From Thiobacillus sp. 0-1251 (lineage in GTDB: Bacteria > Pseudomonadota > Gammaproteobacteria > Burkholderiales > Thiobacillaceae): a stretch of DNA of 64,000 bases. Position numbers and translations under genes: made by a program. The stretch spans positions 124,001 through 188,000 of the forward strand of contig MKWL01000022.1 in the NCBI GenBank assembly GCA_001899305.1. Reading direction: 5' to 3'. The notes below the pieces were generated by a model that worked only from the letters and a program-made list of their open reading frames with translations, did not search any database and was not told the DNA's origin. Of the stretch, positions 19,809 to 21,849 are shown one piece after another; positions within the stretch are counted from its first letter, which is position 1; each line of letters begins with the position of its first letter.

Positions 19809-21152
19809 CTTCTCTCCCGCCAGCTTGTGCTCCAGATAATGGATGCTGGTGCCGCCGGCGATGAAAGCCGCGTCGTTCATCAGTTCCTGGTGCAGCGGGA
19901 TATTGCTGTGGATACCCTCGACCACCATTTCCATCAGCGCACCGCGCATGCGGGCGATGGCCTGGTCGCGGGTGTCGCCGTAGGCGATCAGCTTGCCGAT
20001 CATCGAGTCGTAATGCGGCGGCACGTAGTAGCCGTGGTACACATGCGAATCGACGCGGATGCCAGGACCGCCGGGCGCATGGTAGTTGGTCAGCTTGCCG
20101 GGGCTGGGGATGAAGGTCGTCGGATGCTCGGCGTTGATGCGGCATTCGACGGCATGGCCCTTGAAGGTGATGTCCTTCTGTTTCCACGGCAGTTTCTCGC
20201 CAGCAGCGACGCGGATCTGCGTCTGCACGATGTCGATGCCGGTAATGAGTTCGGTCACCGGATGTTCAACCTGCACCCGGGTATTCATTTCGATGAAGTA
20301 GAACTCGCCGTTCTCGTAGAGGAATTCGAAGGTGCCGGCGCCGCGGTAGCCGATCTTGCGGCAGGCTTCGGCACAGCGTTCGCCGATCTTGTCTCGGAGC
20401 TTGGCGTCGAGCCCGGGGGCCGGCGCCTCTTCCAGCACCTTCTGGTGGCGGCGCTGCATCGAGCAGTCGCGTTCACCCAGGTGAACGGCGTTGCCGTGTT
20501 CATCGGCGAGGATCTGGATTTCGATGTGGCGCGGGGTCTGCAGAAATTTTTCCATGTAGACCATGGGATTGCCGAAAGCCGCCCCAGCCTCGGTCTTGGT
20601 CATGGTGACGGCGTTCAGCAACGCGGCTTCGGTATGCACGACGCGCATACCGCGGCCGCCGCCGCCGCCGGCTGCCTTGATGATGACCGGGTAGCCGATA
20701 CGGGCGGCGGTCCGGACGATCTCGTCGGGATCATCGGACAAGGCGCCGTCGGAGCCGGGCACGCACGGCACCTTGGCTTCGAGCATCGCCTGTTTGGCGG
20801 CGACCTTGTCGCCCATCAGGCGGATATTGTCGGGACGCGGGCCGATGAAGGTGAAGCCGGACGACTCCACGCGCTCGGCGAAATCTGCATTTTCCGACAG
20901 GAAACCATAGCCGGGATGGATGGCGGCGGCATCGGTGACTTCGGCGGCGGCGATGATCGACGGCACGTGCAGATAGCTCTGTGCCGAGGGCGCCGGGCCG
21001 ATGCAGACCGATTCGTCGGCCAGCTTCACATACTTGGCGTCGCGGTCGGCTTCGGAATACACAGCGACCGTCTTGATGCCCATTTCGCGGCAGGCGCGCT
21101 GGATACGCAGGGCGATTTCACCGCGGTTTGCAATCAGAATCTTTTCAAACAT
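19797..21152 (-). CDS. accC: Acetyl-CoA carboxylase biotin carboxylase subunit
   Basis: Carboxylates biotin on AccB using ATP and bicarbonate, the first half-reaction of acetyl-CoA carboxylase in fatty acid synthesis. The 451-residue protein begins [17 protein letters not shown] and has the ATP-grasp glycine loop ([11 protein letters not shown]), the [15 protein letters not shown] segment and [16 protein letters not shown]. The ATG at 21152 has a GGAGA ribosome-binding site. Oddities: the start codon lies inside a predicted 19-bp hairpin loop; an upstream mini-ORF repeats the first 11 residues; and the C-terminal REG comes from a repeat element. Operon aroQ-accB-accC-prmA. Confidence 0.96.
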
Positions 21153-21180
21153 TTGGGTTCTCCGCGGCGAAATCGCCCTG
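21108..21180 (-). promoter_or_regulatory. Predicted 19-bp hairpin enclosing the accC start codon
   Basis: The minus-strand RNA has a 5' arm at 21180-21162 (CAGGGCGATTTCGCCGCGG) and a 3' arm at 21126-21108 (CCGCGGTGAAATCGCCCTG) inside accC. They pair over 19 positions with one G-U wobble. The 35-nt loop holds the accC ATG (21152-21150), and the ribosome-binding GGAGA straddles the stem end. A second hairpin (ACGGCC/GGCCGT, 21195-21181) abuts the 5' arm. Folding should limit ribosome access to accC unless the stem is opened. The structure is seen in sequence; the regulatory role is inference. Confidence 0.65.
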
Positions 21181-21273
21181 ACGGCCTTCGGCCGTTGCGC
21201 GTTTTGGCTTCGCCGCTGCGCTGCCTGACGGCAGCTGGTCTCCGCGGTTGGCGATGAGGATTTTTTCAAACAT
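21145..21273 (-). CDS. 42-codon upstream ORF duplicating the AccC N-terminus
   Basis: A small frame starting ATG at 21273 and stopping TGA at 21147-21145, overlapping the accC ATG in another frame. Its first 11 residues, [11 protein letters not shown], are identical to AccC, with six nucleotide differences that are all silent third-position changes; residue 12 is Asp where AccC has Glu. The remaining 31 residues ([18 protein letters not shown] and onwards) are unrelated and low in complexity. No good ribosome-binding site is visible upstream of its ATG. It may be a translated leader peptide coupled to accC, or a relic of a second biotin carboxylase gene or a partial duplication. Translation is unproven. 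Confidence 0.5.
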
Positions 21274-21280
21274 GGTTTAG

Positions 21281-21405
21281 GGGGAGAGGCAGGATTCAGG
21301 ATTCAGGATTCAGGGGATGCGCGGCATTGCCGCGTCAATGAACGAGGCATGAAGCACCTTCCCTGACCTTGAATCCCTGACCCTGGCCTCTGAATCCTTT
21401 CCTCA
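21281..21405. repeat. Intergenic inverted repeat with GGATTCA units, copy 5
   Basis: Lies between accB and accC. The left part (21281-21316) has GGGGAGAGGC followed by three tandem GGATTCA units and CAGGGG; the right part (21361-21405) has CCCTGACCTTGAATCCCTGA and CCTCTGAATCCTTTCCTC in the opposite sense. The GC-rich middle carries GCGGCATTGCCGC. The overall architecture matches the GTGAGG elements but the unit differs. Confidence 0.6.
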
Positions 21406-21849
21406 AGCAATCACAAACAAGGGTTCGCCGTATTCCACCGGCTGACCATTTTCGACCAGGATGGCCTTGATGACGCCACCCTGATCCGCCTCGATCTCGT
21501 TCAGCAACTTCATTGCCTCGATGATGCACAGCGTGTCGCCGGCATTCACATTCTGGCCGACCTCGGCAAAGTTTTTGGAACCGGGCGCCGGAGCGCGGTA
21601 GAAGGTGCCGACCATAGGGGAACGCACGACATGCCCCTCGGGGACAGCGTCTTCCACCGGGGCCGCGACGGGGAGGGCCGCGACCGGGGCGGCCGTCTGT
21701 ATCATTTGCGGTGCGTGCGCCATCATCATCGGCGCGCCAGCGATGCTTTTGGCGATGCGGACTTTTTCTTCACCCTCGGTGATTTCCAGCTCGGCAATGC
21801 CCGAGGCTTCGACCAGGTCAATGAGCTTTTTCAGTTTTCTGAGATCCAT
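21403..21849 (-). CDS. accB: Acetyl-CoA carboxylase biotin carboxyl carrier protein
   Basis: Carries biotin for acetyl-CoA carboxylase. The 148-residue protein has the N-terminal [23 protein letters not shown] domain, an Ala/Pro-rich linker, and the C-terminal biotinyl domain with the AccB thumb and the EAMKLLNE site (biotinylated Lys114). The start at 21849 has an AGGA ribosome-binding site and overlaps the aroQ 3' end by 32 bp. The aroQ-accB-accC order is the classical proteobacterial one. Confidence 0.96.

Follow-up and report, generated by a model that had tools for sequence, protein, structure and literature searches.

A duplicated gene start ahead of accC: a short, possibly mobile cassette that may couple biotin carboxylase genes to a leader frame

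Two starts in front of accC

Why should a gene for a central metabolic enzyme begin twice? The locus that raises this question lies in 64,000 nucleotides of Thiobacillus sp. 0-1251 (contig MKWL01000022.1, positions 124,001 to 188,000; hereafter the window, to which all coordinates refer). There accC, on the minus strand from 21,152 to 19,797, encodes the biotin carboxylase subunit of acetyl-CoA carboxylase, its first 430 residues scoring 751 bits against NCBIfam TIGR00514, for which the cut-off is 626.5. The gene upstream, an open reading frame called at 21,403 to 21,849 on the same strand with its start set at MDLRKL, we take to be accB, for the biotin carboxyl carrier protein, from reading its translation. 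Between the two lie, in the direction of transcription, a 129-base spacer and a leader open reading frame of 42 codons plus TGA (21,273 to 21,145), which ends eight bases into accC. Its TGA (21,147 to 21,145) overlaps accC codons 2 and 3, the TTT of codon 2 (21,149 to 21,147) forming the stop together with the following GAA.

The leader begins as the gene does. A direct repeat of 35 nt occurs at the leader start (21,273 to 21,239; leader codons 1-11 plus GA) and, by sequence reading and repeat search, at the accC start (21,152 to 21,118), with 83% identity and six differences, all of them silent in codons 1-11. The two ATGs are 121 nt apart, and the copies are separated by an insert of 86 nt (21,238 to 21,153) that bears three small hairpins and a GGAG read by eye as the Shine-Dalgarno-like site of accC (21,163 to 21,160). 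Half of this GGAG falls within the 5' arm of an inverted repeat that encloses the accC start. An earlier note, made from the letters of the window, had described this inverted repeat (arms 21,108 to 21,126 and 21,162 to 21,180, each of 19 nt, around a 35-nt loop, with one G-U pair), the 42-codon frame from 21,273 with its TGA over the accC start, and the identity of its first 11 residues with AccC through six silent differences; all of this is confirmed.

In the cassette-less Thiobacillus genomes that were read, accB is followed by the spacer and a plain accC start. The upstream copy of the 35 nt occupies just that place, directly after the spacer, and the leader is for this reason most simply seen as the old accC start, behind which 86 bases and a second start copy would have been placed. 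We refer to this arrangement as the cassette.

The spacer has a character of its own. Between 21,298 and 21,398 it forms an imperfect inverted repeat built from short direct repeats (CCTGAATCCTGAATCC ... GGATTCAG), and in several Thiobacillus genomes that lack the cassette the spacer is laid out alike, from other repeat words, so that it reads as a fast-changing intergenic palindrome.

The leader frame, its stop and the stem

Is the second start only a scar, or is it tied to the first? The arrangement was compared over 46 of 47 loci, which gave 51 units; one locus (L085), whose gene is cut off by the end of the contig, was set aside. Fifty units are readable, one unit of L035 being interrupted by a run of N. 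Loci from the same genome that were seen to be identical in sequence entered the count a single time, although other duplicates may remain. The distance from leader to gene is 121 nt in 41 units, 118 in five, and 115, 116, 117 and 113 in one each; 121, 118 and 115 are all 1 modulo 3. All 46 units of spacing 121 or 118 keep the leader frame open to the next start. A set of 37 units was examined for stops within the insert: the leader frame lacks them in all 37, the remaining five frames each contain them in 11 to 15 units, and shuffled inserts contain them in 42%. Stops in 11 of 37 inserts also dispose of an N-terminal extension of AccC read in the accC frame.

The leader stop overlaps the next start or falls just inside it in 48 of the 50 readable units. 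In 47 it comes 5 or 8 nt inside (an overlap of 8 nt in 41 and of 11 nt in six), and L188 has the overlap TGATG. The leaders of L180 and L182 stop short of the gene by 21 and 17 nt, so strict overlap can be dispensed with; at L114 the ATG is shifted one codon upstream.

The stop is supplied by the gene itself, as ATGTTTGA or ATGTTTAA, and the gene pays for it in codon choice. Codon 2 is TTT in 39 of 39 cassette-bearing genes beginning MFEK, VFEK, MFKK or MFNK, as against 22 of 48 cassette-less MFEK, MFKK and MFNK genes (Fisher's exact test, 2.7e-9; 6 of 54 cassette-less genes, of other kinds, were left out). Thirty-eight of these 39 use the TTT for the leader stop, L188 having another. Within Thiobacillus the counts are 11 of 11 with the cassette and 11 of 29 without (3.2e-4; 29 of 30 cassette-less loci were readable). 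Genes beginning MFTK reach the same end by another route, with ACT at codon 3, which makes TAA, in 4 of 4 in-frame cases; their own leaders have ACC in 4 of 4, as does the gene of the frame-broken case L180. The rows are related by descent and the p values accordingly optimistic, but the leader copies, as judged from these codons, can serve as an internal control despite kinship. At L173 and L177 (genomes G122 and G272, of one family) the leader reads MFTK and the gene MFNK, the two copies having parted alike in both genomes.

What does the leader encode? The earlier note had proposed coupling through a leader peptide; beyond codon 12 the peptide as such shows no amino-acid conservation. For codons 13-40 in 37 units of spacing 121, pairwise diversity is 0.33, 0.26 and 0.28 at codon positions 1, 2 and 3, without codon-position bias, and pN/pS, about 1 in the leader frame at 0.98, is 0.48 and 1.37 in the other two (sequence pairs with more than 20 differences left out). 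A functional tail peptide is thus unlikely, and it is the passing ribosomes rather than the peptide that appear to matter. Three leaders tested against Pfam gave no domain match. Codons 1-11 behave differently, keeping their amino acids with 162 silent and 34 replacement differences from their own gene starts over 46 loci. We read these leaders as former functional gene starts, though selection on a short peptide may also contribute. The conserved codons also led us to weigh ribosomal bypass from leader codon 11 into accC and RNA splicing between the repeats; neither seems required. That the overlapping stop is conserved argues for ribosomes travelling as far as the stop, and the leader starts may simply be former gene starts.

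The same comparison brings out the pairing of the RNA. On the minus strand the insert forms H1 (21,220 to 21,235; six pairs, GNNA loop), H1b (21,206 to 21,214; three pairs, GNA loop) and H2 (21,181 to 21,195; six pairs, mostly a GNA loop), followed by the 5' arm of the start-masking stem H3 (21,162 to 21,180). This arm is complementary to the gene on both sides of the insertion junction, and its partner, recognized by repeat search and covariation, lies in accC codons 9-15 (21,108 to 21,126) and spans that junction. Over 33 sequences, 92% of the cells of this four-helix structure are paired (99.5% in H1, 99.0% in H1b, 90.4% in H2 and 89.1% in H3). The earlier note had suggested looking for covariation of the arms across relatives, and it is there: 21 of 34 pairs have changed on both sides, in 104 cells (4 of 6 in H1, 2 of 3 in H1b, 6 of 6 in H2 and 9 of 19 in H3). 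None of 500 shuffles matched the both-side changes or the covariation score, one equalled the count of further pair types, and controls with slid partners gave 4-10 such pairs. H2 is displaced by three bases in five sequences and scored partly unpaired there, and the outermost pairs of H3 are weak, the first being unpaired in 19 of 33 sequences and the second in 13.

The 5' arm is fitted to the gene behind it. Among 27 representatives of the 46 loci it makes 14.9 Watson-Crick pairs with its own gene and 13.2 with other genes, a difference reached in none of 20,000 permutations; the better fit holds within and beyond the 35-base repeat, and in the 18 accC loci alone the outer ten pairs give p 5e-5. 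A fixed offset was used in scoring L177, L178 and L120, which makes the test conservative, since on inspection the pairing of the L177 and L178 arms is shifted by one base.

Predicted energies agree with a hidden second start. The RNA of 21,090 to 21,290 folds at -78.1 kcal/mol (z -3.5, with 0 of 200 shuffles as low), and the hairpin of the window by itself is predicted at -38.1 kcal/mol. Opening the gene start would cost 15.8 kcal/mol on average and the leader start 7.5 over 45 loci (L035, with its N run, was excluded), against 8.5 for the accC start of 29 cassette-less Thiobacillus genomes; the gene start is the costlier in 44 of the 45, the exception being L036 of G060. By these predictions the gene start is masked by a structure that upstream translation would open.

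Taken together, the open frame, the constraint on the stop codon, the covariation and the predicted opening energies support by comparison the earlier note's proposal that translation of the leader melts the stem and delivers ribosomes to the gene, and from the constraint on the sequence we infer that the gene is coupled to its leader. The original gene start, comprising its upstream context and 35 nt of coding sequence, would have become the start of the leader, the insert bringing the small hairpins, the Shine-Dalgarno-like site and the second copy of the start. Ribosomes would begin at the original start, which is open, and in translating some 41 codons would unwind the stem by which the second start is otherwise hidden; on stopping at gene codons 2-3 they would restart there, helped by the GGAG. 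The stem would meanwhile keep free ribosomes off the second start, so that output would remain tied to the original one.

Occurrence and inheritance of the cassette

Whose device is this? The earlier note proposed a device for acetyl-CoA carboxylase, and here the comparison departs from it in two respects: the cassette stands before several biotin carboxylase paralogues rather than accC alone, and it is no fixed part of the genus, occurring in 11 of 56 Thiobacillus genomes searched. It looks mobile or often lost. The 56 include three genomes without any match and one (G003) with a weak match of the paralogue kind only, and absence is not shown for these four. In the order, 25 of 399 genomes carry the cassette at 86 bits or more by a covariance model built from 32 sequences with the gene start included, and seven more match at 52 bits or less. 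In a search of the class, 34 of 369 genomes matched; the 30 loci listed among these 34 matches have two starts in one case (that of the window), one start in 26 and none in three, as judged by motif. The earlier note had held that absence from close relatives, with arms that do not covary, would speak against it; most relatives do lack the cassette, but where it is present the arms covary.

All recognized cassettes precede a biotin carboxylase gene, accC or a paralogue. The first 430 residues of ten genes behind a cassette were scanned, and all ten are biotin carboxylases; three (the window, L113 and L189) pass the accC equivalog cut-off, and the seven below it are taken as paralogues. Two genomes, G122 and G440, have two cassettes each, before two genes, and in the second of G440 (L189) the leader start is much changed. 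A scan of GTDB with one genome per species, using a 27-base pattern of the insert without the gene start, returned 38 stretches, 22 at the start of a biotin carboxylase gene and 16 unrelated coding matches. Across the 399 genomes of the order the core pattern gave 56 matches, of which 25 are the known cassettes, 18 others look on inspection like chance coding matches and 13 were not fetched; in what was inspected, no cassette stood at a gene other than biotin carboxylase. Thiobacillus, Gallionella, Ferrigenium, Pseudothauera, Methyloversatilis, Pseudogulbenkiania and Chitinimonas are among the carriers, and the carriers found belong to the Betaproteobacteria, in several families and with the cassette before several genes. 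The genome of the window (G000) has a single copy and no dispersed repeat of the cassette, which rules out a repeat family of its own genome. At L183 (genome G147, positions 1480-1627), one of the seven weaker matches of the order, a diverged leader-like copy of the AccC start stands 147 bases upstream of the gene with a different insert, at 51.6 bits; it could be a decayed cassette or an independent duplication.

How has the cassette been inherited? On a tree of accC from 40 Thiobacillus genomes (L024 was not usable), its presence needs 8 changes, compared with 9.7-9.9 in shuffles, and the well-supported branches force only 3 of the 8. Distances between inserts follow those between accC genes within Thiobacillus (rho 0.88, 55 pairs). 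Over 26 accC loci the distances of insert and AccC protein correlate at rho 0.40 for all pairs and at 0.10 (p 0.09) for pairs not both from Thiobacillus, and the insert of G102, from another family, differs by 13% from one Thiobacillus insert; saturation under structural constraint could be another cause of such flat distances between families. On a poorly resolved tree of the inserts the gene class changes 4 times, as against 14.5 in shuffles, and the well-supported branches force one change. Units stand in tandem at L072, L104, L111, L118 and L085, and probably at L035. About 200 nt upstream of the last unit of L035 (genome G042) lies a second leader copy, then a run of N, then a piece like the last unit, either a tandem array or an assembly gap within one. 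Two loci have direct repeats without a mismatch that extend past the ATG on its upstream side, by 10 nt at L113 and by 7 nt at L182, to lengths of 42-45 bases; such repeats look recent, as after an insertion or duplication.

From these comparisons it is concluded that the cassette has been gained or lost often and then inherited, and that it has probably passed from family to family and from one paralogue to another. Its scattered occurrence, the tandem units, the service of two paralogues in one genome and fresh repeats of 42-45 bases together suggest a mobile insert like the Mycobacterial interspersed repetitive units (MIRUs). The explanation that we favour, and hold to be probable, is therefore a short, likely mobile cassette specific for the starts of biotin carboxylase genes and made translationally transparent. 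Some observations sit uneasily with it. The rho of 0.88 within Thiobacillus is as expected of vertical inheritance with many losses, restriction to biotin carboxylase genes is unusual for a mobile repeat, and the amino-acid keeping of leader codons 1-11 is accounted for only indirectly. Intrastrand template switching can also produce matching arms in the absence of selection, and the genomes examined for a Y1 transposase, described below, yielded no mobilizing enzyme.

The reading that comes next, which we consider doubtful, is a host regulatory device, inherited vertically and lost often and without scar through the 35-nt repeats, in which leader and stem would adjust or monitor how much biotin carboxylase is made, for instance by keeping AccC in ratio to AccB or by shutting it off when translation of the leader fails. 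Coupling itself is common to this reading and to the mobile cassette. A host device would explain why the stem arms track each host gene, why insert distances follow accC within Thiobacillus, why each recognized cassette precedes a biotin carboxylase gene and why the cassette would be kept where recombination between the repeats would remove it cleanly. It is hard to reconcile with presence in a minority of genomes, both in the genus and in the order, with a tail peptide that is not conserved and the lack of any obvious sensor, and with distances of insert and AccC that hardly correlate between families.

The locus offers a compact natural experiment on how an essential gene can take an insertion among its opening codons and still be expressed. 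Coupling is predicted for an enzyme central to the making of fatty acids and for carboxylases related to it. The structured element covaries well and has no counterpart in the Rfam copy searched (seven weak matches in 20,900 to 21,500 of the window, none reaching the gathering score). The cassette may represent a new class of very small mobile element specific for one gene family.

Folded DNA, relics and known systems

If the cassette moves, how does it find its target? One proposal, which we regard as unlikely, is that it homes as folded single-stranded DNA, the GNNA and GNA hairpins acting as recognition sites. Its 19-nt arm, which can pair with the sequence on either side of the junction (CCGCGGnGA and AATCGCCCTG), would guide insertion at the conserved ANRGE codons of biotin carboxylase genes; the duplicated start and the coupling frame would then only make insertion in an essential gene tolerable. 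The loops are suggestive. RNA tetraloops follow a GNRA rule, and a pyrimidine at the third place is foreign to it. Among the 41 units of spacing 121 the loop of H1 is GNNA in 37, with a pyrimidine at the third place in 18 of these 37, that of H1b is GNA in 39 and that of H2 is GNA in 28, displaced H2 helices being counted as misses. Extraordinary stability in DNA is described for mini-hairpins with GNA and GNNA loops (PMC4686876), the cassette folds as DNA with z -5.8, the arm is centred on the insertion junction, and the recent-looking repeats of 42 and 45 nt fit such an event. Against this, no mobilizing enzyme was found in 33 cassette-bearing and 33 cassette-less genomes examined for the Y1 transposase PF01797, which is present in 15 and 24 of them and so shows no association and is rejected as the mobilizer; 72,556 plasmid records held no match to the cassette; and the inner 16 pairs of H3 have 34 G-T cells but only 9 A-C cells (8 and 9 distinct events), a weak hint of RNA pairing.

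A by-product, in which an old duplication has left frame and stem as effectless relics, is very improbable and already disfavoured by the codon tests. Inverted repeats are known to be perfected by template switching, the pairing here would be kept by quasi-palindrome correction, and some leader starts do decay (L189, L166), but this leaves unexplained the TTT and ACT constraint on the gene, the absence of stops in the leader frame only and the covariation in H1, H1b and H2.

The mobile cassette, our preferred reading, can be set beside several known systems. Regulatory leader peptides of the erm, trp and tnaC types are short open reading frames that precede a gene whose start lies in structured RNA; the cassette differs in that its peptide after codon 12 is not conserved and no regulatory run of codons is seen by eye. 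REP/RAYT and IS200/IS605 elements are palindromic repeats moved by Y1 transposases, with small stable hairpins and possibly a single-stranded DNA stage. The cassette shares the hairpins and possibly the single-stranded DNA, but it is single-copy in the genome of the window and its presence does not go with PF01797.

MIRUs, by contrast with this single copy, are dispersed over many loci of a genome. The cassette resembles them, by its sequence, as an insertion at a gene start with a coupled open reading frame. One source (PMC12548453) describes MIRUs in terms similar to a translated, gene-keeping insert and says that they couple at a spacing of -4 nt. In the cassette the overlap is mostly 8 nt (41 of 50 units; 11 nt in six), a single gene family is targeted, and the first 35 nt of the gene itself are present twice. 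A stem of 19 pairs, fitted to the host gene, surrounds the start, and the carriers found belong to the Betaproteobacteria rather than to the mycobacteria. Overlap, target range, start duplication and stem all differ, and we therefore call the cassette, compared with MIRUs by their description, MIRU-like rather than a MIRU.

A search of the open PMC literature found no description of such a device among the papers listed. Translational coupling by RNA unfolding or termination-reinitiation, as outlined in PMC12548453 and PMC6728339, resembles it in the overlap of stop and start, the masked start and the Shine-Dalgarno-like restart site; there the partner is a neighbouring gene, whereas the cassette would couple to a leader made from the gene's own beginning. 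A survey of frame transitions enters as translational coupling a cluster of biotin carboxylases that comprises 128 genes from 44 genera (PMC3711429), and this cluster may be the accB-accC pair or may include the cassette.
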